A stretch of 38,734 bases of DNA from a virus. The translations under genes and the position numbers were made by a program. Location of the stretch: IMG/VR virus record IMGVR_UViG_3300030385_001682, positions 1 to 38,734 of that record; one strand, written 5' to 3'. The notes beneath the pieces were generated by a model. It was not told where the DNA came from. It saw nothing but the letters and a program-made list of their open reading frames with translations, and searched no databases. This document shows, piece after piece, positions 14,750 to 32,721 of this stretch; within the stretch, counting starts at the first letter, position 1; every line of letters starts with the position of its first letter.

Positions 14750-15790
14750 TTATGGTGCAGGACATTCAGCAATTTCAGAACAATCTTTCCAATCAAATGT
14801 GTAATTAACACCTGCAAATTCATCACCTGCATTAAAACTGTTGGCAGGTAATTGGAAAAGTTTGTAATGTAAAAACAACTTGATAACATACTTTTCAGTA
14901 CAATCATCATAATGAACCTTCATGTCATAAGTCAACCCTGTGAATGGATCAGTAATTGTTCCATGCTCAAACACATCATTTCTTTTTGCATAAGAACCCA
15001 GATATTTATTCCAAGTCAGTAATTGATTGACATTTGGTGCTAACACTATAAAGTGACCTGCACCTGCAATTCCTTCAACAAATCTGTCATTATAATAAGC
15101 ATAATCATTCCACAGACTTAAATCTGTACCAACTGAAGAATTGCAACATGCAATTTCTGTTGATTTTGCATATAGATCAAAATTTCCTGATCCAATGATT
15201 AAAGGAACACCAACTGCACCAACTTCTTCATATTGATGTCTGATCTGTGCCATTGCAATTGATCTTGGTGCATTTTCAGGTGCATCAGTGAACAAAGGAA
15301 CTTCCTTCAATGATGTTCCATCAGCAAAATCACCAAAATTAGCACTTTGATCTGTAATAATTCTTTTGTCCAATTCAACATTGATAGCATTCATTTGTCC
15401 CATGACAATGTTTGAAATCCATGTTGCATCAGATTCGCACAATTTTCGCATTTCATCTTCAGTAAAGATCAACCCCTTTGTACTTATACAGTCATCAACT
15501 GCAACCTTTTTTTCAAATGGTTCTTGTTCAACAGAACCTGTACAATCTAATATTCCAGAACAATCTTCATCAATGTTGGATGCAATACCCCTTTGATAAA
15601 ATTTGATCAATGTTTCTTTATATTTTCCATCAGATGGAACAGGTATCTTTTCAATGCCATCAGTATTCAAATTTGACAACAATGCATCAAGATATCCAAC
15701 ACGATCCCTTTTTAATGCAGGTGCATTTTTTCCTGCAACATCATTTAAGTATGTTTGGAATGCTTCACATAATCCTTGTGTAAAAGCCAT
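14750..15790 (-). CDS. Major capsid protein
   Basis: The protein has 346 residues from MAFTQGLCEAF. It shows the pattern I recall from Bacteroidota siphophage capsid proteins: N-terminal GLCEAFQTYLND and LKRDRVGYLDAL, then FTEDEMRKLCE, IVMGQMNAINVELDKR, and ATW near the spine helix. The middle contains GAVGVPLIIGSGNFDLY, and the C-terminal part holds DCTEKYVIKLFLHYKLF. It ends in ECPAP. The scaffold-like gene lies directly upstream. The start at 15790 begins the conserved MAFTQ. The frame is open to 15853, but that extension has no family counterpart. Confidence 0.85.
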   Translation of the reverse strand: MAFTQGLCEAFQTYLNDVAGKNAPALKRDRVGYLDALLSNLNTDGIEKIPVPSDGKYKETLIKFYQRGIASNIDEDCSGILDCTGSVEQEPFEKKVAVDDCISTKGLIFTEDEMRKLCESDATWISNIVMGQMNAINVELDKRIITDQSANFGDFADGTSLKEVPLFTDAPENAPRSIAMAQIRHQYEEVGAVGVPLIIGSGNFDLYAKSTEIACCNSSVGTDLSLWNDYAYYNDRFVEGIAGAGHFIVLAPNVNQLLTWNKYLGSYAKRNDVFEHGTITDPFTGLTYDMKVHYDDCTEKYVIKLFLHYKLFQLPANSFNAGDEFAGVNYTFDWKDCSEIAECPAP

Positions 15791-15913
15791 AATATAGTTA
15801 TTTAATTTTTTTAAATTAATGTTTCTAAAACAGATTTTGGATTCCCATCCCAATGATCATTTTAGGTATGATGATCAACATACAATTAGCATTTTTGGTT
15901 GCTATACCACAGG
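15791..15913 (-). promoter_or_regulatory. 123-bp noncoding leader upstream of the major capsid gene
   Basis: No supported gene lies here. It contains a 7-bp perfect inverted repeat (TGATCAT at 15854-15860, ATGATCA at 15871-15877, 10-base loop) and an AT-rich stretch up to the capsid ATG. Abundant capsid messages often have their own promoter or stabilising hairpin, and either role is possible. I see no clear TAnnTTTG box. Confidence 0.45.
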
Positions 15914-16750
15914 TCAAAGTGATGTCAATCCACCATGTGTCTTCATCTCTTTTAATCTTTCAGCATTTTCTTTTGCCTTCTGAAGATGTGGTAGGTGGAA
16001 TTTATTTTCAACTTCACTTTTGTTTTTTACGTTTAAGGTCTTAAATATTGCCTTTGATGTGTTTTCAACATCACCATTTGACTGTTTAATTACCTTCATT
16101 TCATTTAGATAGCCATCAACAATTTGATCCAATGTCTGAACTGTTGTTCCTTCTTTGTCTAATGGATTAAGACCATCTTTTGTTTTGATCTGCAATGCAT
16201 CATCATCACCAAGACCAATGGAATAATTCTTATCAAGATATGATTGGACTGATGGATAAAGAATTTCTGAATCCACAATCAAGGATTTTTTGTTCAATAT
16301 CTTCCTGATCTTCATTTCTTTCTTATAGTCAGAAAGTTTTGTTTGTCCTTTTGTCTGAATGTCTGGAATGATCTTGTCTTCAAATTCCTTCACCTTTGAT
16401 CTTAATTCAATCAAATCATTTTGCAATGTTTCATTGACATCAGTCTTTTCACCCCTTAATTTGTCAATAGCCAGAACAATGATTTCATCAAACTTCTTGT
16501 CTTTGATTTCTTCAGATGTCAAACCAAATGCCTTTTTGATCTTATGTTCAATCTGTGACAACTCTTTTCCTTGTATTTCTTTCTTTAATGGATTGATGAC
16601 TTCTGGATTGTTGATAAAAACATCTTTGAATGATGTTTTAAAGCCATCTGACAGGTCTTTGACTTCAATGTCATCTTCACCCTTCAATTGGTCAATTGCA
16701 TCACCTGTGACACCAATTTCCTTCAAGAATTTTTCTGTGTTAGAATTCAT
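15914..16750 (-). CDS. Probable scaffolding protein
   Basis: The protein has 278 residues and is almost entirely helical and highly charged. It has a central coiled coil at about residues 100-140 (LIELRSKVKEFEDKII) and a basic C-terminal region (LPHLQKAKENAERLKEM). The order portal, Mu F-like protein, scaffold, major capsid is the classical head module. Scaffold proteins guide capsid assembly through such C-terminal basic helices and are then removed. No protease gene is visible nearby other than the HExxH domain of the Mu F-like protein. Confidence 0.72.
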   Translation of the reverse strand: MNSNTEKFLKEIGVTGDAIDQLKGEDDIEVKDLSDGFKTSFKDVFINNPEVINPLKKEIQGKELSQIEHKIKKAFGLTSEEIKDKKFDEIIVLAIDKLRGEKTDVNETLQNDLIELRSKVKEFEDKIIPDIQTKGQTKLSDYKKEMKIRKILNKKSLIVDSEILYPSVQSYLDKNYSIGLGDDDALQIKTKDGLNPLDKEGTTVQTLDQIVDGYLNEMKVIKQSNGDVENTSKAIFKTLNVKNKSEVENKFHLPHLQKAKENAERLKEMKTHGGLTSL

Positions 16751-17012: not shown

Positions 17013-17261
17013 TTAATTATCCACAAACTTCACATTCAGGACATAAATAAGATCATCTTCATCCCTTTTGTACTTGCCATTAAATTTAATTATTCTTCCT
17101 TCTGCTTCAAGCAAAATTAAATATAACCCCCTTGCACCTTCAAACTGAAGATAATCCATTGGATCATCTTCCTTTGGAAAATTCATTATATATTTGGCAT
17201 AAAGATTTTCAAAATTCTCAAAATTAAAATCTGGATATTGTTTTCCTTTTACTGTTATCAT
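17013..17261 (-). CDS. Hypothetical small protein, 82 residues
   Basis: The protein is acidic, with ITVKGKQYPDFNFENFENL at the N-terminus and a Gly-Arg-rich turn (GARGLYLILLEAEGR) before a final beta strand. No family is recognised. It overlaps the end of the Mu F-like gene by 4 bases and precedes the head genes, so it is probably a small head-associated protein. Confidence 0.72.
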   Translation of the reverse strand: MITVKGKQYPDFNFENFENLYAKYIMNFPKEDDPMDYLQFEGARGLYLILLEAEGRIIKFNGKYKRDEDDLIYVLNVKFVDN

Positions 17262-19519
17262 AAGCCATTAATACTTTTATATTGATCTAACATCAATTGA
17301 TATAATTCAGGATTTTCATCCCTAAAAATTGGATTGCCTTGCCAAAAATTTTCTGCTGAATGCACATAAAATTCAAACCTTCTGGCAGAACCACCATGTT
17401 TTGAAAAATATGATTTTGGATGACCACTTCCATGATTGGAATTACTTAATGCCATAATTGTATCAGAATAACTTCCCAAGAAATTGAACAATTGCTTTCT
17501 TGTATAAATACCTTTATATTTTGCTTCATAGTCATTTATTGTACCCCATGCACCATGCTTCAATCCACCAAATTTGTATTTTAGTCTTAACTTTGCAGTG
17601 TCTGATGTGTCTGCTATATATTTAACTGTCCTGTCATCATCTTCCTTTACCTGTTTTTTATATAACTTCCTGCTTTCAAGATAATTGTCTTCATATTCTT
17701 GTTTATATATTTTTAAACCCCATTTTCCACCAATCAATTTTTTTGGTTTATCATGTGGATAAGGTAATTTTATTATCTTTTTTGTTTTTGGATGAATATA
17801 ATGTTGTGGAATCCATTCCCTTTTTGCAAATTGCTTTTCTTGTGCATGTGACATTTCATGGATCATCACAGTTTTCCGAATTGATGGATCATCAAAAACT
17901 GCAATATTAATAAACAATTCATTCTTTGCAGGACTAAAAAATGCAGGTCTACCCCTTTTGTTTTTTGTATCAACATCAATGGTTGGCATAGATGGTGAAC
18001 CCTTTTTGTCAAACAATTCCCAATATTGATCTGGCAGATTATCCAATTCAGGATTGTCAATCAATGCCTTTGGTTTTGACCTTTTGCCACCCCATCCTGT
18101 CACTTCATTTTTCCTGTCATAAGTCAAATCCATATATTTTGATGCAGGAACATCTGCCATGTTTGTGTCTTCTTTAACCTTCTTTTCAATTTCAGTTTTG
18201 TATTGTTTACTGTCATATCTTTTCCGTTCTCTGGTGGTCATTCTGAAAGGTATTGCAGTATGTCTGCAATTATATCCACCCCTGAAGACTGCAAAATTGT
18301 TTTCATTTGTTCCTGCAATCAATCCCTGCATTGGTGATCCATTCAAAAGTTTTGACAGGTCTTCTTTTAATAAGACACCCATTGCAACCCACCTTTTGCA
18401 CTGTGGTCTGGATGTTCCCTTCAGACTTCCAACATATTGATATGCATCAAGATTGTAATCCTTTGCCATCTGTTGGTTGATCATGCCATCATATTGGTTC
18501 AGTGAATCCCTTGCAATCTGTCCAACATAGGCAGAAAATTTTCCAACATCCTGATCATTACCTTCAATGAATGTTTTGATGGACTTTTCCATTTCATCAA
18601 TGGTGACACCTGCAACTGCATTTTTGAATAACTGTTCCCTGATAGGAACAACAAAGGCATCATTGACACCTGATCCTGTCAGACCTTGCAATGTGTCTTC
18701 AATCATCTGTTTTTTAAATGGTTCAACCAATTCTTCCATTGTCTTATTCTGCTCAACAGATTCAGGATAAAAGGAAAATTCATTCATGTCATTTCCATCC
18801 CATATTACTTCTGATGCCTTAACTTTTTGTTGAATAACTTTTCCATCTTTTGATTCCAAGTCTGCATATGTTTTTGATAATGAAATCCATTCACCTTGAT
18901 GAATTTTATCAATGCCATCTTTTGGAATCCCCCTGTAAATGGTCACTTCACCATCTGGATCACCTTTCATCTTTTTTATGACATCCCAAGATTCCTTATA
19001 TGAATCTGCAATTCTTTTATCTTTTGCATTAAAATTTGCATATAATTCAGGTCTTGAATAAAAGTCTTCAGGAATCAAGTCACCACCTTTTGTCATATCA
19101 GATAAATTGGTATTAAAATCATCATCTTTAGACATCTGATGTGCCACCTTTTCAGATTCATAAGGAAGACCATTGACTTCATGTTGGATTTTTTCCTGAT
19201 GTTTCTGAACCTGATCAAAACTTTTCAGATACTTTTTCACATCTTTCAGGTATGTGTCATCAGAATTTCCTGCCTTCCCTGTTCTGATTTCATTTAAGAT
19301 TGCTTTGTCAAGGGAATTGATTGAATTCAATGTGTTTTCATCAACATCAACTTTGCCATCTTTGACTGTGAATTGTGCCATGTGTTTTTTCACCAACTTG
19401 AACACATTCCTTTCATATGATGACATATTTCTTAACATCATTTTATCCTGATCAGTGATAAATTTAATGTTTGTCCTGATCAGTTTTAAGATACTTCCAT
19501 CAGACCATCTTCTGTTCAT
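17258..19519 (-). CDS. Three-part head protein: ADP-ribosyltransferase-like, Mu F-like and HExxH domains
   Basis: The protein has 753 residues. An ADP-ribosyltransferase-like region covers about 190-250, with VTIYRGIPK (Arg196), then EWISLSKTYAD and GNDMNEFSFYP (Glu247). Phage polyvalent-type ART domains share this R-S-E order. A Mu F / SPP1 gp7-like minor head domain covers about 290-430, with QCKRWVAMG (Cys374) and GGYNCRHTAIPF (Cys418, His420), the usual C-terminal motif of that family. Residues 549-564 contain HEMSH (His554, Glu555, His558), a zinc-metallopeptidase motif. The C-terminal region is basic and aromatic. Neighbours are the portal upstream and the scaffold downstream, so this is the minor head protein, packaged on or in the capsid. 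The enzymatic parts could be injected and act on host proteins, or the peptidase could process the head. Both are inferred. Confidence 0.82.
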   Translation of the reverse strand: MNRRWSDGSILKLIRTNIKFITDQDKMMLRNMSSYERNVFKLVKKHMAQFTVKDGKVDVDENTLNSINSLDKAILNEIRTGKAGNSDDTYLKDVKKYLKSFDQVQKHQEKIQHEVNGLPYESEKVAHQMSKDDDFNTNLSDMTKGGDLIPEDFYSRPELYANFNAKDKRIADSYKESWDVIKKMKGDPDGEVTIYRGIPKDGIDKIHQGEWISLSKTYADLESKDGKVIQQKVKASEVIWDGNDMNEFSFYPESVEQNKTMEELVEPFKKQMIEDTLQGLTGSGVNDAFVVPIREQLFKNAVAGVTIDEMEKSIKTFIEGNDQDVGKFSAYVGQIARDSLNQYDGMINQQMAKDYNLDAYQYVGSLKGTSRPQCKRWVAMGVLLKEDLSKLLNGSPMQGLIAGTNENNFAVFRGGYNCRHTAIPFRMTTRERKRYDSKQYKTEIEKKVKEDTNMADVPASKYMDLTYDRKNEVTGWGGKRSKPKALIDNPELDNLPDQYWELFDKKGSPSMPTIDVDTKNKRGRPAFFSPAKNELFINIAVFDDPSIRKTVMIHEMSHAQEKQFAKREWIPQHYIHPKTKKIIKLPYPHDKPKKLIGGKWGLKIYKQEYEDNYLESRKLYKKQVKEDDDRTVKYIADTSDTAKLRLKYKFGGLKHGAWGTINDYEAKYKGIYTRKQLFNFLGSYSDTIMALSNSNHGSGHPKSYFSKHGGSARRFEFYVHSAENFWQGNPIFRDENPELYQLMLDQYKSINGL

Positions 19520-21203
19520 CTAAATTCAGGGTTTTATTTGCCTTTTCTTTATCCAGATATTTCTGCATTCCTTTGTCAATATTGTCAAAAATAAATTGCA
19601 ATTCATTTTCCAGAAAATGTGTTCCTTCAACTGCAATGATTTCCATTAATGTCTTATAAGCAAATAATGATTTCAAGATGTCTTCATTCTGAATTGTTCC
19701 AGATGCCAACAACATGGTTTTTTCCTGAACTGTAAGGTGGAAAATAGGATCATAAGAAACAAGGATTTCAATGATTCTTGGTTGTGTCACTGATCCACTG
19801 AATCTTTTCCTTGCCAAGTCTTTTGTTGTTTCCAGAAGAAATGCCACAGGAACATTTTTTGACTTCATTTCATTAATTTCACTGATCAGATCACTTTCTG
19901 TTTTTATGGTGAAATCAATTGGTTTCTGGATGTTAGGTTCAAAAGGATCAGAAAGGTTTCGGTATTTTTCAATGAATATCAATGACTTGTAAATGATTTC
20001 ATCAAAAATGTTGTTGCTGATCTTAATCAAAAATGAATATTGTTCTTCCCTGTCAATTGCCTTTGCCACCCCTGACTGTGCTTCAACAACATGAAGAAGA
20101 TGCAATGATTCTTCTGCCTTCTTCAGTAAATCCTGCCATGCTTCACCACTGTATTTGATGATGTCAACAGGTGGACTGATGAACCTGACCACAGGATCAG
20201 TCAAATTGGTGTTCCCATCCAATGCAGGATTGGATTTTGCCCTGATAAAAACACCATAAGGACTTCTGTTGATGATATAACCTGTGCCATTACATTTTGA
20301 ACAGGTTGCAGTGTCACCAGATTCAACATCAAGGATCAATCCTGATCTGCACTTTGGATGATCACAATCTTCTGCAACTTCTTCCCTGTATGGAAATGCA
20401 CTCATGGTCATAACACCTTGCCAATCAGAATATTGTCTTATGCTTTCATTGGCAAAAGGAAGGAATGGTGAAAAGTATGAAACAAAATAATCATCTTCAG
20501 TGATGTTGCCACCCAAAGTGATGGCAGGAATCATGTCAAAATTGTGTTGATAGATTTCTTCTAATTCATAAGCATTCTTTGATGCCTTTTCTTTTTCAGT
20601 ATGTCTGTATATATGTGTTTTTGTCAGTGTATAATAAACCTTCCCTTTTACATCCACACCACCCTGATTGATTAAAACACTTTCATTTGGTTGATAAAAG
20701 GTGATGTGATCATCATCCATCTGGACAATGTTACTGCTATAAACCAACACAGGTTTCACCTGAACCTTTTCTGATGGATTGGTCAGACCTTCACCTGATG
20801 GTAACCACACCAGAAGACCATTGGCATCTTCAATCATCCTTCTGACAACAAACTTCTGGATATAAGAATAAAAATATTGACCTGTGAATTTCTTCACTGA
20901 CAGGTAATCATCAAGATCAGGATTGATCTGAATGCTGAAATTGGCACTTTGGAAGATTCTGTATAAGGTATCAATTGCCCTGTTGATTGAACCTGTGGTG
21001 ATTGGTTCATATATGCTCAACCTGTATTTATACAATGTCTGATCTTCATTTGGTCTTCTTTCAGACAAAATCTTTTCTGGCAGTGAACCCCTTGTGTGAA
21101 CAAACATATTTTGCATGGCATCAATCCATTCCTGTTTGTGTTCAGGTTCATCCAGATTAAGAAATTCCTGATTGTATTTAATGATGTCAAATTCTTCTTC
21201 CAT
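19500..21203 (-). CDS. Portal protein with zinc-ribbon insert
   Basis: The protein has 567 residues. Portal features include an N-terminal acidic helix, PITTGSINRAIDTLYRIF, a long middle with FSPFLPFANESIRQYSDWQG, and a C-terminal helical tail (LLKKAEESLHLLHVVEAQSGVAKAID, then the DNA-facing helices). Residues 280-304 hold Cys280, Cys285, Cys301 and Cys304 (CDHPKC, CSKC, then NGTGY), a DnaJ- or rubredoxin-like zinc ribbon inside the wing region. The portal forms the dodecameric DNA channel at one capsid vertex. It overlaps the Mu F-like gene by 20 bases, the usual portal/minor head pairing. Confidence 0.85.
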   Translation of the reverse strand: MEEEFDIIKYNQEFLNLDEPEHKQEWIDAMQNMFVHTRGSLPEKILSERRPNEDQTLYKYRLSIYEPITTGSINRAIDTLYRIFQSANFSIQINPDLDDYLSVKKFTGQYFYSYIQKFVVRRMIEDANGLLVWLPSGEGLTNPSEKVQVKPVLVYSSNIVQMDDDHITFYQPNESVLINQGGVDVKGKVYYTLTKTHIYRHTEKEKASKNAYELEEIYQHNFDMIPAITLGGNITEDDYFVSYFSPFLPFANESIRQYSDWQGVMTMSAFPYREEVAEDCDHPKCRSGLILDVESGDTATCSKCNGTGYIINRSPYGVFIRAKSNPALDGNTNLTDPVVRFISPPVDIIKYSGEAWQDLLKKAEESLHLLHVVEAQSGVAKAIDREEQYSFLIKISNNIFDEIIYKSLIFIEKYRNLSDPFEPNIQKPIDFTIKTESDLISEINEMKSKNVPVAFLLETTKDLARKRFSGSVTQPRIIEILVSYDPIFHLTVQEKTMLLASGTIQNEDILKSLFAYKTLMEIIAVEGTHFLENELQFIFDNIDKGMQKYLDKEKANKTLNLDEQKMV

Positions 21204-25499: not shown

Positions 25500-27257
25500 T
25501 TAAACTGTGCCATTCACTGTCATTACTCTTTTAGAGAAATTAACCTTTAATTCTTTTACCTGTCCATGCTTAACAACACCACCTTTCATCAATTTCACAT
25601 ATTTGTCAAAACCAAATGATTGCCAATCTTCACAATCAAAGGCAAATTCAAAACTGAAATCAAATTGTTGTGAACTTGGATTTCTTGGATCATCTATTGA
25701 CCAAAACTGATCATAAAGATTCAATTCATTGTCTGCCTTAAACCAATAAGGATAATTATATCTTTCATTTTCTGCAACAATTTCACCACCTGCATATACA
25801 TTTCCACCTGTATATACATTATGCCACACAAAAGACACTGTTGGATCAGAGATACTATAAAAATTATCAGATAATAACAACAATTTCATCTGGAATGCAG
25901 TGTGTTGATTCAACAATAATGCCCTGTTATATGTAGAAAATGCACCACCCCAAATCAAATTAAAAAAGGTCTTATTGAACATGGTATAAATATCTGTTTC
26001 AACACCATCATTCCTGAATCTTGCCATTCCAAAAGGTAATGAAATCAATTTTTCACCTGACTGCATTTCACTGACAGGATTATTCCATTCAACAATGTCT
26101 TCATATCTGGTTTTACCTTCATTACCAATGTAATCCTGTGAATCCAATGCATAAGTGAATTTTCCAAAGGCAGGTCTTTCATCATCCTTCCAATTGAAAC
26201 AGATTTCATTGTCAATGATCTTGTCTTCTGCCATTAATGTAACGGAATCAAGCCATTCAATGGTCTGGAAGAAATAATCCTTTCTTTCAAAGGTCAAGAT
26301 GCCATTTGCCACATGCCAATCACCATTGTAAACCCTTGACAGGTAATTGGTTAAGAAATCAGATAATGTCAACAATGGTTCATTCCCTGCAATAAGATCA
26401 AAGTCTGTTGATGCAGGTTTTCTGCCCTTATGAATTGGTGCAGAAAATAAAACAGTTTTATAATATAATGATGCAGGATCATTCAGGATTGATGACTGAA
26501 ATTGTAATCCACATTTGTCACATACATTTTTGATGTAATCCCTGACATATGGTGATGGATGAAATCTTCCACACCCCAACATCCAATTGGCAATTGAATC
26601 AAAGATATCTGTAATCTCATTAATTACATTTATTGGATTAGTGAATCCAGAATTGCAATTTGGTGGATTGCAAGGAATTAATGGAATTGAACAGATTCCT
26701 GCAATGATATTACAGAAGACATAAATGATTCCAAAAATGATAATGACAACAAAGATCAATGCAATCATAATTGAAAATATTAATGTTTGTAATGCAGATG
26801 CAAGAAGAATCAATAATGCCTGAACAAAATTTGGTCTTAATTCAAGGCAATACCTAATGGCAGGATGTTGTTGTGATGAAAAGAAACCATTGTGATCATC
26901 TGCCAATACTGTGGATTTTATGCAATCTATATCAGGATCAGATTCCACTATTGATGCAGTAATGGAACAGACAGGTTCACACCAATCAATGCCATCACCC
27001 CTGATGATCCCTGAATAAACCTTTTCATTACAACAGTCATCATATATGTCCACATTGACAAATTGAATGAAACCTTCTGGATCATCAATCAATGCATTCT
27101 TTAAAATCTGGTAACCATCATCATAAAATGTCAATTCAGAAGAAAATGACTTGCCAATGGCATTGTCTGTGCCTTTTCTGGACAGTGTGACTTCAAAGGT
27201 GTCTGTGCCTTCAACCCTTCCATTGATTTTGGTGTTATTTATTTCAATGACCATCAT
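25500..27257 (-). CDS. Tail-tip hub-like protein with membrane-like segment
   Basis: The protein has 585 residues. The N-terminal 100 residues resemble a distal tail/hub beta domain (INGRVEGTDTFEVTL, SSELTFYDDGYQIL). Residues 144-195 form one or two strongly hydrophobic stretches (FVQALLILLASALQ and FVVIIIFGIIYVF), which is unusual for a soluble tail protein. A Cys/Pro-rich segment follows, and the remaining 370 residues are beta-rich (FDLIAGNEPLLTLSDFL, SFVWHNVY). It lies directly after the tape measure gene, where tail-tip and hub proteins are encoded. Membrane insertion during DNA ejection is an inference from the hydrophobic segment. Confidence 0.75.
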   Translation of the reverse strand: MMVIEINNTKINGRVEGTDTFEVTLSRKGTDNAIGKSFSSELTFYDDGYQILKNALIDDPEGFIQFVNVDIYDDCCNEKVYSGIIRGDGIDWCEPVCSITASIVESDPDIDCIKSTVLADDHNGFFSSQQHPAIRYCLELRPNFVQALLILLASALQTLIFSIMIALIFVVIIIFGIIYVFCNIIAGICSIPLIPCNPPNCNSGFTNPINVINEITDIFDSIANWMLGCGRFHPSPYVRDYIKNVCDKCGLQFQSSILNDPASLYYKTVLFSAPIHKGRKPASTDFDLIAGNEPLLTLSDFLTNYLSRVYNGDWHVANGILTFERKDYFFQTIEWLDSVTLMAEDKIIDNEICFNWKDDERPAFGKFTYALDSQDYIGNEGKTRYEDIVEWNNPVSEMQSGEKLISLPFGMARFRNDGVETDIYTMFNKTFFNLIWGGAFSTYNRALLLNQHTAFQMKLLLLSDNFYSISDPTVSFVWHNVYTGGNVYAGGEIVAENERYNYPYWFKADNELNLYDQFWSIDDPRNPSSQQFDFSFEFAFDCEDWQSFGFDKYVKLMKGGVVKHGQVKELKVNFSKRVMTVNGTV

Positions 27258-30200
27258 CTGGATTGCCTGTTTTTAAGCCTTGAAGACTTATAAGCTAAAT
27301 TTGAAACAATTCCATGAATGCCTTTTTCATCAATGGACACTGACATCCTGTTCTGTTTGTTGATTGCCTTTTCAATACTGTGCAACCTTGAATCCATTGT
27401 TTTGTTTTCCACCAACACCATCTTCTGGCTTAAAAGATCAGGTGATAATGTCCTGCCTGTGTGTATGGCATCCAAAAGATTCCTGTTTCTTGCAGTCTTA
27501 TCTTTGCTGATCACATATTCACCTTTGTGAACAACACCTGCAACATCCATTTTTCTTCCATCACCTGTGTAACCACCTTCAGCAAATCCACCTGCAAGAC
27601 TTTGTGCTTGTGCCTTTGCAGATATGATTCCAATGGCTAATGCAATCAATGTTGATGCAATGGTAAAAGGTGCTAATGCACCACCTTCTGCACCTGCTCT
27701 GGCAATGGCTAACATGCTTTGACTGATGATCATAATCAAATCCAATGCCTGTTGTGTCTGGACAAATTTCTGTTTCTTGGCATTTAATTCCAACAACCTT
27801 TCTTCTTCCAATTGCAACTGTTCTGCATTGCCAAATTCTGCCAAATCCCTTGCCCTTTCAATCCTGTCTTTCTGTGCATCAATCTGACCATCAACTTCTG
27901 CAATTGCCAGACTGATCAATTCCTTCACCATCTGTGCAGTCTGTTTGATTATATTTTCAATTGCTTTTTTCTTTTCTTCTTCTTCTTTTAAAGCAATATC
28001 TTCATCATTCTTCTTTTTGAATTTTGCATATTCTTCATCTAATTTCATCAATGCAAGTGTTTTTTTCTGATTTGCCAATTCAACCAAATCTGCATTTTGC
28101 CTTGCCAACATGACTTCTGTGTTGTGTGCATCCATTATTGATGCCTCCTTGATCATCTTTTCCTTTGCCAACATATCATCCAATGCCTTTTCTGACTGCT
28201 TTGCCTGTTCTTCTTTGCCTTCTTTCCTTAATTTGGCAATCAAATCTTCCTGTTCCTTGATCTTTGCACCTATCAAGACCAATTCCTGTTGCCTTTCAAC
28301 TTCACCAATGGCAATCATGGTCTGCATCTTCTTCATTCTGACCTTTCTGACTTCTTCTTCTGCCTTTTTTACCACCAATTTGATCTGTTCATCCAATATC
28401 TGGTCTAATAAAACTTTGTTTTTGTCACTTAATTGCTTTTTTTCTTTTGCAATCCTTTTCCTTTCAGTCATAATCTTCTGCAATGCAAGAATTTCTGCAT
28501 CCTTGATCTGGTTGATCTTGTCAATGTCATCAATATCTGCAAATTTGATGTCTAAAATTCCAACCTGTTGTTTTAACTTCTGCAATTCTTTGAACAGGTT
28601 GTTGAATAAGGATGTCATTACTTTTGTTGTTCTTCCTGCACCATCTTCAATCTTGTCTTGTTCTTTTGTCCATTGTGAATAAAAGTCTATTATGTTTGAA
28701 ATGACTTTTCTGTTCTTTTCAACTTCTTTTTGATAATCTTTTGTTTTATGTGTCATGGCAGACACCATGAATGTATTGTTTTGTAAGACACCAAATGTCT
28801 TTTTCTGTTCATCAGTAAGATTTTTATATACTATCTTCAAGGCATTCCCTTCCTTTGCAATCAATTTGGTTTGTATGACACCATCTTCTGTTGTTGACTT
28901 CCATTCAACACCAAGATCAACCAACTTGTCCATCACATCAACAATTTGTTCTGATGTTGCACCCTGTATTCCTGAAACCCTGATTGATTCCTTCCATTCT
29001 GAATTCAAGTCTTCTGCAAGTTTGATCTGTGTTTTCATTACTTCACTGATCTTTTCTTCCTGTGTCTGTACTGCAACCTTTTTCATCATTGCATCTGTTA
29101 CACTTTTATATGCCAATGCAATTTCTTTTAATTCTGCTTTTTCTGTCAATAGGTTTGGCAAATAGTCACTGTATGATTCATTGATCTGTTTGATCAACAA
29201 CAACTTCCTTTCTTTTCCTGTATTACTGTGCATTAATTCTTCAAATAATGCAGACATCTTTGATGTTTCTTCAGAAACCTTTTTGTTCATTTCTTTGGTT
29301 GCTTCAACAGAATCCCATGTGAACTTGGTGTTTTTTTCCAGACCATCATTCACTTCATCAATTGCAAAAATACTATCTGCAAATACAACTGCAAGTGTGG
29401 TCAATGCAGTAGCAATGATTCCAATAGGATTGGACATGATTGCCCTGCTTAATGCCCTGAATGAAATGGTCATTGCTCTGGTGCTGATGGTTGCAGTCCT
29501 TTGTGCCAATGTCATTGCCTTTGTGCCAAGTGTTAATCTTCGCATATTATATGTACCAAAAGTCATCACCTTATTTGATAATCCTTGCCACAATGCGAAT
29601 GCCTTCAATCTTAATACATTTAAAACAATCAATGCATTGTATGATCCAAATGCAACACCTAATCCAATTATACTTTTCTTGTTGTCATCAATGAACTTTG
29701 GCAAAGTCTGAATAAATTCAATTATTTTACTTCCAATTTCAATCATCTTGTTGAATGTTGGCAATAACTTATCACCTATTGATCTTTGCAATGCAGTGAA
29801 TTCACCTTCCAATGTTGACATCTTTCCTGCCGTAGTCTGTGACAGGTTGACCATTAAGTCTTTGAACTTGCCACCTTCACCTGTCATTTCCTTAAATGCC
29901 TGTTCCAATAAATCAAAATTCAACTTGCCTTCAGAACCCATCTTCTTGATTGCAGATGTTGGCACTTTTAACATCTTTGCAAACTTGTCAATGATTGGAA
30001 TCCCTGCTTCAGTCAACTGATTGATGTCTTCAGCAAACAGTGTTCCTGATACCTTTGCCTTGCCAAAGATCACTGCCAATTCATTGAAATTCTTCCCTGT
30101 TCCTGCACTTAAATCACCAATTGTTTTCAGACTTGGAATCAGTTTTTCTGTGGTCACACCAAATGCCAACAACACCTTCCCTGCCTGATTCACTTCTTCA

Positions 30201-30541
30201 GGTGTCAATGGTGTCTTCAGACTGAACTGTTCAAGGTCTGCCATGACCACCTTTGCCTTTGCACTTGATCCAAGAAAGGTTTCAAAACTGACTGTCAAGG
30301 CTTCAAAGTCTGATGCCAGACCAATGGTTGCCTTGCCAAAATCCAATAACTGTTGCACTGCAAATAAACCACCCAACAATTGACCTGCCTTCTGGATTGT
30401 CTGACCAAATTTGGACATGGATGACTGTGCCTTCTTCACTGACTGATCCACCTTGCCAACATCCTTTGCCATCTGTGACATATCTTTCCGCATCCCTTTG
30501 GTGTCTGCTTCAATCCTGAATATTACATTCTTTACTGCCAT
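27254..30541 (-). CDS. Tape measure protein
   Basis: The protein has 1095 residues. It begins MAVKNVIFRIEADTKGM. Residues 60-260 carry the TP901-type tape measure domain, with GLASDFEALTVSFETFLGS, TPEEVNQAGK, then KVSGTLFAEDINQLTEAGIP. Hydrophobic segments lie at about 292-312 and 372-394. Long coiled coils rich in Glu and Lys fill residues 640-900. The C-terminus has the usual GGFAEGGYTG and HKGEYVISKD. It sets tail length: at about 0.15 nm per residue this predicts a tail of about 160 nm. It directly follows the chaperone-like pair, as in lambda. Confidence 0.88.
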   Translation of the reverse strand: MAVKNVIFRIEADTKGMRKDMSQMAKDVGKVDQSVKKAQSSMSKFGQTIQKAGQLLGGLFAVQQLLDFGKATIGLASDFEALTVSFETFLGSSAKAKVVMADLEQFSLKTPLTPEEVNQAGKVLLAFGVTTEKLIPSLKTIGDLSAGTGKNFNELAVIFGKAKVSGTLFAEDINQLTEAGIPIIDKFAKMLKVPTSAIKKMGSEGKLNFDLLEQAFKEMTGEGGKFKDLMVNLSQTTAGKMSTLEGEFTALQRSIGDKLLPTFNKMIEIGSKIIEFIQTLPKFIDDNKKSIIGLGVAFGSYNALIVLNVLRLKAFALWQGLSNKVMTFGTYNMRRLTLGTKAMTLAQRTATISTRAMTISFRALSRAIMSNPIGIIATALTTLAVVFADSIFAIDEVNDGLEKNTKFTWDSVEATKEMNKKVSEETSKMSALFEELMHSNTGKERKLLLIKQINESYSDYLPNLLTEKAELKEIALAYKSVTDAMMKKVAVQTQEEKISEVMKTQIKLAEDLNSEWKESIRVSGIQGATSEQIVDVMDKLVDLGVEWKSTTEDGVIQTKLIAKEGNALKIVYKNLTDEQKKTFGVLQNNTFMVSAMTHKTKDYQKEVEKNRKVISNIIDFYSQWTKEQDKIEDGAGRTTKVMTSLFNNLFKELQKLKQQVGILDIKFADIDDIDKINQIKDAEILALQKIMTERKRIAKEKKQLSDKNKVLLDQILDEQIKLVVKKAEEEVRKVRMKKMQTMIAIGEVERQQELVLIGAKIKEQEDLIAKLRKEGKEEQAKQSEKALDDMLAKEKMIKEASIMDAHNTEVMLARQNADLVELANQKKTLALMKLDEEYAKFKKKNDEDIALKEEEEKKKAIENIIKQTAQMVKELISLAIAEVDGQIDAQKDRIERARDLAEFGNAEQLQLEEERLLELNAKKQKFVQTQQALDLIMIISQSMLAIARAGAEGGALAPFTIASTLIALAIGIISAKAQAQSLAGGFAEGGYTGDGRKMDVAGVVHKGEYVISKDKTARNRNLLDAIHTGRTLSPDLLSQKMVLVENKTMDSRLHSIEKAINKQNRMSVSIDEKGIHGIVSNLAYKSSRLKNRQSR

Positions 30542-30543
30542 GC

Positions 30544-30855
30544 TTATGGTTTATTACTTTGAAATGATTGATTGTCCATCTGCTTTTCCTGTGCCTTTGC
30601 TTTTTCATCAATGATCTTCACATAGGTGTTGATGGTGGAATAATATTCATCAATGTTCAGGTCTTCCATTGCTTTGATTTCACTTACTTTGTTTTCACAC
30701 ACCATCTGGTTCAAATAATTAATGTCATCAATGTATTTTATTATTTCATGCCTTGCAATAATTTTAGCAATATGTCTGATTGGTCTTTGTTTCTGATCAA
30801 ATAGTCTTTTATATCTTTGTCTGACATATTTCCATAATTTGTTGTGTATTGCCAT
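30544..30855 (-). CDS. Second tail-assembly chaperone-like frame (frameshift extension)
   Basis: The frame has 103 codons from an internal ATG. It starts with a basic segment (KYVRQRYKRLFDQK) and ends in a helix and a QSFQSNKP tail. It overlaps the upstream frame by 115 bases and lies in the -1 frame to it. The -1 frame is open from the U9 run at 30865-30873 through this ATG. It may therefore be made mainly as the C-terminal part of a frameshift fusion, the gpGT type, rather than alone. It ends 2 bases before the tape measure gene. Confidence 0.75.
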   Translation of the reverse strand: MAIHNKLWKYVRQRYKRLFDQKQRPIRHIAKIIARHEIIKYIDDINYLNQMVCENKVSEIKAMEDLNIDEYYSTINTYVKIIDEKAKAQEKQMDNQSFQSNKP

Positions 30856-31292
30856 GCCTTTTGCAAAAAAAAAGACTTGGCATCATTATCCCTGTCCAAT
30901 ATTTCTTTCTTCTTGTCCTGCCAATTGGAATTCATCTGTTTAATGTCTTCACCTTCCAGAATGAAATAACAACATGCCAGATCAATCAAGGTCTTTTCTT
31001 CACATATGTATTCCAACCTGTATTCCAATTCTTTAAGCATGTGGAACATATCCACAATCTTCCCTTTGTCTGCAAATTCCTTCATTGCACCAATGGACTT
31101 CTGCAATGTTTCCTTTGTGATGTTCATGGATGACCACTTGGTTGCAACTTCACCTGCAATTGCCCTTCTTGTTGGTAATGATAGCATGTTCTGGAATTCA
31201 AACCACCTGTTGCCATCAATATCCTTGTAACATTCCACCAGATCAAGGTCTGTTCCTTCAGGTTTCTTCTTTTTATTGAATAATGTGATCAT
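30741..31292 (-). CDS. Tail-assembly chaperone-like protein (gpG-type), 183 residues
   Basis: The protein is helical and acidic, beginning MITLFNKKKK and containing WFEFQNMLSLPTRRAIAGE and a Cys pair (LACCYFIL, near 107). Its place is the tail-assembly chaperone slot, immediately upstream of the tape measure protein. The codons around Ser140-Phe142 form TCT followed by U9, a slippery stretch. Reading there in -1 continues into the next frame, giving a predicted 249-residue fusion. I set the start at 31292, where the ATG overlaps the previous stop (ATGA). A longer frame opening at 31343 would overlap that small gene by 55 bases. Confidence 0.75.
   Translation of the reverse strand: MITLFNKKKKPEGTDLDLVECYKDIDGNRWFEFQNMLSLPTRRAIAGEVATKWSSMNITKETLQKSIGAMKEFADKGKIVDMFHMLKELEYRLEYICEEKTLIDLACCYFILEGEDIKQMNSNWQDKKKEILDRDNDAKSFFLQKAWQYTTNYGNMSDKDIKDYLIRNKDQSDILLKLLQGMK
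30865..30873 (-). promoter_or_regulatory. Predicted -1 ribosomal frameshift site (U9 run)
   Basis: The message reads TCT TTT TTT TTG in the zero frame at codons 140-143 of the chaperone-like gene. A slip of one base back continues as TTT GCA AAA GGC ATG and joins the second frame without a stop. Phage tail chaperones classically use such a slip to make a long fusion. A single missing base in a homopolymer of the assembly would look the same. Confidence 0.65.
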
Positions 31293-31417
31293 TTGCGTTT
31301 CCTTTTTGTGGTTTTCTTCCCTTTTTTGTTCTGTGAATAGCATATTGCATAAGAATCAGACTTCTTTTTGCCTGACTTCAGCAACTTTTGGACACATTGT
31401 TCAACTTTTAAAGGCAT
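31289..31417 (-). CDS. Small basic protein after terL, 42 residues
   Basis: The frame has 42 codons: MPLKVEQCVQKLLKSGKKKS, then YAICYSQNKKGKK and a Lys/Arg tail. Its stop makes an ATGA overlap with the chaperone-like gene start and it begins 11 bases after terL. Short basic proteins with a Cys-x-x-K helix are common beside terminase genes in Bacteroidota phages. Function unknown. Confidence 0.6.
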   Translation of the reverse strand: MPLKVEQCVQKLLKSGKKKSDSYAICYSQNKKGKKTTKRKRK

Positions 31418-31428
31418 AATTTTCAAAT

Positions 31429-32721
31429 TTAGGTCATTATTTTAATAAAGTTATGATGAAATGTCCACAGAAAGTAACGGAAACAGTCTAAAAGGTGACT
31501 TCTGTGCTTGTCCTTTGCCTTGTCAATGTCACCAGATTCATTGGTTTCAACAAATTGCAGGTCTTCAATTAAGAACCTGCACCTTTCATCAATTATCAGG
31601 TCTTCATGCCTGTCCAACATGCTATTGACCAACACCCTTGAATTCTTTAATGATGGATTCACTGATGGTACTTTGAATTGTGATCTGCTTAACATCAATT
31701 GTTGCTTAATAACTTTGTAATAATTCAGATCACCTTTGACCAATGCAGACCTTGATGATCCAGATGCATCACCTGTAACCAAGAAATATGATGACTTTGG
31801 AAATGATGTGTTGATTTCTTCACACAATTCATATATATTACTGTTCCTTAACCTGAATTCCTTGATGATCCTGATCTTCCCTTCATAGGTCTGCCCTGCA
31901 ATACAGGTGATTGGATCAACATTGAAATCAAATGACAGGATGATGTGCATGGAATGATCAATCTTCAACCCATGACCAACATGCTTTCCAAGATCAAAGG
32001 CATATGCAAATGGTCTGTCCACATCCAGAACATTCCAATTCCCTTTGACATAGACCTGATGTGTGATGTCATCCAGATTCTTCAGGTTGTCAATGTATTC
32101 TTCAGTCAGACTTGGATTGTCCAACATTGTTGATCTTAAATAGAAATAGCCATCAGGCAATGCATCTTCCATTGCAGGTTGATGGAATATGTCCTTGATC
32201 CAACCCTGTGATGGATTGCAGGTGACCAAGATCAATGGTTTTGGTTGTTTTTCTTCTGGTATTAAGGGAATGATGTGCCTTCCTGATCTCAATTTGCACT
32301 TCTCAAAGGTCTTTCTGTTGATTTCCTGCCCTTCTTCAATCAGAAACCCATTGCATTCAATCCCATCCATCCTTGTCAGGTTCTTGTCTTGGTGGTAATT
32401 CTCTGGAAAGAAATGCAATTCAGAACCATTCCTGAAGGTCACCACCTGATCAGTCTGGTTGTATGTCCTGATGAAAGACTTTGGACATAGCTTGAAGAAT
32501 GATGGAATGGTGGTTCTTTTAAGTGATGGCAATGATTCCCTGATCACAAAATACTTTGAGAATGGATGAATCTTGCACAACAGGATCAGGATTGCCAATG
32601 AAACAAAGGTCTTGCCACCACCTGCACCACCACCAAACATCAGATATTTGTGCCTGTTGCTGAACACTGCATTGATGAATTCTTCCTGCTTTGCATGTGG
32701 TTCAAACATTACCTGTTCCAT
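31429..32721 (-). CDS. terL: Terminase large subunit (packaging ATPase and nuclease)
   Basis: The protein has 430 residues. The Walker A is GGGAGGGKT at 30-38 and the Walker B is GFLIEEGQE from 125, with the acidic pair at 129-130. A coupling-type LVTCNPSQ lies at 165-172. The RNase H-like nuclease residues are Asp265 (SFDFNVDP), Asp318 (VTGDASGS) and Asp412 (HLLDCFRYF). It drives DNA into the procapsid through the portal and cuts it at the end of a round. It lies downstream of the terS-like gene, separated by four tiny genes, and precedes the tail module instead of the portal, which is unusual. Confidence 0.93.
   Translation of the reverse strand: MEQVMFEPHAKQEEFINAVFSNRHKYLMFGGGAGGGKTFVSLAILILLCKIHPFSKYFVIRESLPSLKRTTIPSFFKLCPKSFIRTYNQTDQVVTFRNGSELHFFPENYHQDKNLTRMDGIECNGFLIEEGQEINRKTFEKCKLRSGRHIIPLIPEEKQPKPLILVTCNPSQGWIKDIFHQPAMEDALPDGYFYLRSTMLDNPSLTEEYIDNLKNLDDITHQVYVKGNWNVLDVDRPFAYAFDLGKHVGHGLKIDHSMHIILSFDFNVDPITCIAGQTYEGKIRIIKEFRLRNSNIYELCEEINTSFPKSSYFLVTGDASGSSRSALVKGDLNYYKVIKQQLMLSRSQFKVPSVNPSLKNSRVLVNSMLDRHEDLIIDERCRFLIEDLQFVETNESGDIDKAKDKHRSHLLDCFRYFLWTFHHNFIKIMT

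Follow-up and report, generated by a model that had tools for sequence, protein, structure and literature searches.

In phage lambda, the tape measure gene is immediately preceded by a pair of overlapping frames that a -1 shift at an X_XXY_YYZ heptamer joins, yielding the two products G and G-T; the site is GGGAAAG, only five zero-frame codons of G are left beyond it, and the gene preceding G is the major tail gene. The E/E+E' pair of phage P2 is organized in a comparable manner, with T_TTT_TTG standing in register, with the tape measure gene as the next gene downstream, and with a gene E of 91 codons of which six are left after the site. Tail chaperone genes with a poly-U site have been described before, not only in P2 but also in Smp131, whose site is given as T7G in PMC3931495, and in SPP1. 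For the gp17.5 and gp17.5* pair of the latter, PMC6316719 places a putative -1 shift on UUUUUUC, beyond residue 112 of the 173, giving a fusion of 297 amino acids; by the numbers of that paper, 61 codons of the zero frame follow the site. As a control, the heptamer scan applied in this study recovers both GGGAAAG in lambda and TTTTTTG in P2.

The locus that we compare with these systems lies on one virus contig in IMG/VR, IMGVR_UViG_3300030385_001682, positions 1 to 38,734 of which (the whole stretch analysed, 38,734 nucleotides) are referred to here as the window. The relevant features are the following.

27254 to 30541, minus strand: tape measure protein, 1095 amino acids, adjoining T downstream (PHROG and Pfam TMP_3 matches).
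30544 to 30867, minus strand: T, which prolongs G in the -1 frame by 107 residues past the shift (the frame closes at 30544).
30741 to 31292, minus strand: G, the zero-frame gene, a predicted tail assembly chaperone of 183 amino acids plus stop.
30741 to 30866, minus strand: dual-coded stretch, in which the 41-codon zero-frame tail of G lies over the beginning of T.
30853 to 30855, minus strand: an incidental T-frame ATG, shared at this position by 2 of 73 junctions.
30864 to 30870, minus strand: U_UUU_UUG, the second of two overlapping heptamers (codons 142-143 preceded by the last base of codon 141).
30867 to 30873, minus strand: zero-frame heptamer U_UUU_UUU (third base of codon 140 plus codons 141-142).
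31289 to 31417, minus strand: small open reading frame of 42 amino acids, which ends within the start codon of G (ATGA overlap).
31429 to 32721, minus strand: terminase large subunit, upstream of G (profile matches and position in relatives).

An alternative upstream ATG for G exists at 31343, but the ATGA overlap with the 42-codon frame supports the start at 31292. The 42-amino-acid frame contains Cys, and a loose pattern search finds a segment resembling it before G in 18 of 28 representative loci, the window included.

Around the slip site the minus strand reads AAG TCT TTT TTT TTG CAA, so that codons 140-143 of G are TCT TTT TTT TTG and the run is T9 (A9 on the plus strand, 30865-30873). 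The coding strand of the window has three runs of at least seven T, of which one is a T9. The run accommodates U_UUU_UUU together with the overlapping U_UUU_UUG, both of which are X_XXY_YYZ heptamers, and 126 bases of overlap between the two frames follow the slip. Two products with a common N-terminus are predicted, one of 183 and the other of 249 amino acids, the latter composed of 142 zero-frame residues and 107 residues in the -1 frame; a slip on U_UUU_UUG, read by hand, would likewise give 249 residues, with Leu rather than Phe at residue 143. The first-pass annotation had given both lengths correctly, and had also placed the site at the right codons, although it was slightly inexact in speaking of TCT followed by nine U, the final base of TCT being already one of the nine. 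Its further statement that a homopolymer here takes the place of a heptamer does not hold, given that U_UUU_UUU and U_UUU_UUG both conform to X_XXY_YYZ and that poly-U precedents exist in P2, Smp131 and SPP1.

We propose, with a probability of roughly 0.9, that a conserved -1 ribosomal frameshift at the poly-U site joins G and T into the 249-residue fusion, making up a lambda-like pair of tail chaperones. Most ribosomes would finish at the stop codon of G itself and release the 183-residue protein. In a minority, the P- and A-site tRNAs, sitting on the two successive Phe codons of U_UUU_UUU or, in the window, on the Phe-Leu codons of U_UUU_UUG, would re-pair one base back, and translation would go on in the -1 frame to produce the G-T fusion, the slip setting the ratio of G to G-T. 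On the model of lambda gpG/gpGT, the role of the G part may be to coat the tape measure protein, and that of the T part to recruit the tail tube subunit. We infer both the ribosomal nature of the slip and its efficiency; according to a review (PMC5009743), ribosomes in E. coli shift much less readily on U_UUU_UUU than on A_AAA_AAG.

The locus matches lambda in the overlapping frames, the heptamer and the position before the tape measure gene, and the likeness to gpG/gpGT put forward in the first-pass annotation is upheld by a -1 frame relation conserved in all 74 distinct junctions that we could assemble. It differs from lambda in that 41 zero-frame codons are left after the site, and in that G is preceded by the terminase rather than by the major tail gene. 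The P2 heptamer is identical to the second heptamer of the window, but E is much shorter than G, the two being compared by site and architecture. In its long zero-frame tail past the site, the window resembles SPP1 as that phage is described.

The relatives were drawn from IMG/VR viral contigs, using searches with single sequences and then with two alignments. P0001 alone as a query found no relatives among the viral contigs and blastn with the region gave no match, whereas the T frame as a query retrieved four viral contigs with the register kept and with runs of T9, T8, T7 and T7. The alignment searches yielded 42 loci via T and 80 of 123 via G; profiles for both frames match all 120 loci other than the window. 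Dropping loci with an identical junction left 74 distinct junctions, the window included, which form 48 clusters at 90% identity and 28 at 70%; pairs drawn from the 48 are on average 52% identical. Beyond these contigs, T has no match in genome contigs, protein queries for G and T (from L005 and L003) have no tblastn match in 50,697 phage records, and a literature search returned no paper on this G/T family. One 36.7 kb contig, IMGVR_UViG_3300020017_000024, carries the G/T region twice (L009 and L010), about 6.6 kb apart and with an identical junction, which may reflect either duplication in tandem or an error of assembly.

The T_TTT_TTT heptamer stands in zero-frame register inside the two-frame overlap in 73 of the 74 junctions. 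The exception (L100) has an in-frame TGA earlier in G while its T9 run and T frame are intact, and its relatives possess intact copies. Among the 48 representatives sharing less than 90% identity the heptamer shows zero variation, with the mean pairwise difference at the three bases preceding it reaching 0.52-0.65, and in 40 aligned G proteins F141 and F142 are among the 18 invariant columns. Elsewhere in G, Phe is encoded by TTT 261 times and by TTC 244 times out of 505; judged by the codon usage of each gene, the log10 probability of TTT at both codons throughout would be about -30 for the 48 representatives and -18 for the 28, figures that ignore shared ancestry and are indicative only. The same qualification applies to all such counts, as the register is inherited and 73 junctions are not 73 independent tests. 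A chance occurrence of the site is rejected by the invariance of the heptamer and its register across the relatives.

The run itself is less constant, being T7 in 40 of the 73 junctions, T8 in one and T9 in 32. This bears on the most viable alternative, namely that RNA polymerase adds a U on the T run (a net -1 change) and that ribosomes then read the longer mRNA in the normal manner. Bacterial RNA polymerase is known to slip on A9/T9 runs, according to PMC5009743, and T9 is found in the window and in 31 other junctions, where polymerase slippage could add to ribosomal slipping. The homopolymer length expected for it (about nine A or T) is, however, a property of the window and not of the family; what is conserved is the heptamer in its tandem-codon register and not the length of the run; and the tail chaperone precedents of lambda and P2 are described as translational. 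Since more than half of the junctions have only seven T, transcriptional slippage would be at most an addition, and as the sole explanation we regard it as unlikely. Ribosomal slippage is thus favoured, and U9, which the first-pass annotation had named as the slip site, is a feature of some members of the family in which nine U are not essential.

Far less probable still is the notion that G and T are two independent overlapping genes, in which case T would be initiated at the ATG at 30855 and the fusion would be unnecessary. Such an ATG does exist in the window and in one relative (L002), where it is the first ATG of the T frame and lies at codon +6, but these are just two of the 73 junctions; in two others the first ATG is upstream of the slip, and in the remaining 69 it comes at codon +44 or later or is absent. 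When ATG, GTG and TTG are all counted, 62 of the 73 junctions lack any start ahead of codon +44, and the rest comprise nine whose sole candidates precede the slip and the two with the ATG at +6; yet the alignment of relatives indicates that the T frame is conserved right from the slip onward. The invariant heptamer also counts against an independent T gene. With so few starts of its own and with conservation beginning at the slip, T is best understood as an extension of G accessed through the shift, and the ATG in the window as incidental. On the evidence of the aligned sequences, then, T is not a separate gene and would be reached only by frameshifting. In three junctions a stop codon lies just before the heptamer and the T frame opens exactly there, so the shift cannot occur farther upstream. 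The description of T as a second gene with its own ATG has accordingly to be abandoned. The 115-base overlap cited in favour of a functional slip is correct as a figure (from the ATG at 30855 to the stop of G at 30741), but it is not the figure that matters, since that ATG is incidental; the overlap after the slip is 126 bases.

The pattern of nucleotide substitution is in keeping with the -1 frameshift. Before the slip, the differences at the three zero-frame codon positions are 0.37/0.25/0.61, in the overlap they are 0.32/0.33/0.46, and in the part coding for T only they are 0.22/0.58/0.29; the wobble position shifts to the -1 frame at the slip and is damped in the overlap, as dual coding predicts. 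The zero-frame sequence of G also stays conserved past the slip, its tail there comprising 41 codons in the window and 35-63 in the relatives (the value of 35 coming from a locus cut by the contig end). That G and T are a single gene whose run was miscounted would be a natural suspicion for an error-prone homopolymer in a single IMG/VR contig, but the same frame relation with T7, T8 and T9 runs across 73 distinct sequences, together with the conserved and dual-coded zero-frame sequence past the slip, excludes such an error in the window assembly for practical purposes.

The tape measure gene lies directly downstream in every one of the 67 relatives for which 600 nt or more of downstream sequence is present, as it does in the window, where the first-pass annotation had rightly described the two as neighbours. 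The terminase precedes G in 58 of 63 loci by a strict coordinate test, and in the other five it ends inside the stop-to-stop frame of G. Neither G nor T has a convincing match to a named Pfam, PHROG or PDB family. AlphaFold models of G and T have intermediate pLDDT values, 71.9 and 70.5, and fold searches returned no significant match in the PDB (G only) or among viral models (G and T); in the viral search with G the best match, with an E-value of 0.011, was to an unnamed protein, and six of the 50 matches listed were to named tail assembly chaperones, all with E-values of at least 0.41. Because family and fold matches of significance are missing, the assignment is based on position and architecture, from which we infer that G/T is probably a tail assembly chaperone. 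The terminase and tape measure matches include Bacteroidota phages among others, all distant, and a host from the Bacteroidota is a guess.

Programmed frameshift sites are often, though not obligatorily, accompanied by stimulators, such as a downstream RNA structure or an upstream Shine-Dalgarno-like element. By folding energy we found no downstream RNA stimulator: in 46 representatives the 60-nt windows just after the slip fold on average more weakly than the gene as a whole, the sequence after the slip in the contig analysed here also folds only weakly, and no downstream stem-loop stands out. Upstream of the slip, the energy of the Shine-Dalgarno-like duplex in 48 representatives is -5.9, compared with -3.7 in synonymous shuffles, and a positional control places the strongest signal of 25 positions (-2.18) at the slip. 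The T7 group (-3.22) accounts for this signal; the T8-9 group (-0.73), of which the window is a member, does not. It is tempting to speculate, though the idea is doubtful, that in this one orphan family the U_UUU_UUU slip is driven in two alternate ways, by U9 with the second heptamer U_UUU_UUG in lineages of the window type, and by an AAGGAGG-like element pairing with the anti-Shine-Dalgarno sequence about 7 nt upstream in many of the seven-U lineages. On the tree the run length changes three times and the Shine-Dalgarno label nine times, with just two or three independent pairs in which the two could be compared. If the idea were true, an internal Shine-Dalgarno-like stimulator and the length of the run would be interchangeable means of setting the G:GT ratio.

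As a whole, the data provide good support for a real and strictly conserved -1 frameshift, an ordinary case of a known phenomenon set in orphan protein sequences, which leaves existing knowledge of tail assembly and recoding unchanged. The result settles how an orphan gene pair in a sizeable family of uncultivated phages is to be annotated, namely as a single frameshifted gene instead of two genes, and the invariant heptamer with its natural T7, T8 and T9 variants makes a usable set for studying how run length and upstream Shine-Dalgarno-like sequences affect frameshifting.

The Riemerella phage RAP44 and the Bacteroides phage p00 have a related tape measure gene and, not far upstream of it, likewise a pair of overlapping -1 frames, with other genes intervening between the pair and the tape measure gene in RAP44. 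The candidate heptamers differ from that of the window, being A_AAT_TTT and C_CCT_TTT, and the T sequences look different by eye. In both phages the overlapping pairs (L122, near 1261, in RAP44; L123, near 3635, in p00) are annotated as two separate genes.

The order of genes on the minus strand of the window is terminase, tail chaperone and tape measure, with portal-, scaffold- and capsid-like frames farther downstream (19500-21203, 15914-16750 and 14750-15853, respectively, recognized by eye and by position). In a frame of 753 amino acids (17258-19519, minus strand), a central YRGIP...SLSKTYA segment resembles, by eye only, an ADP-ribosyltransferase motif.
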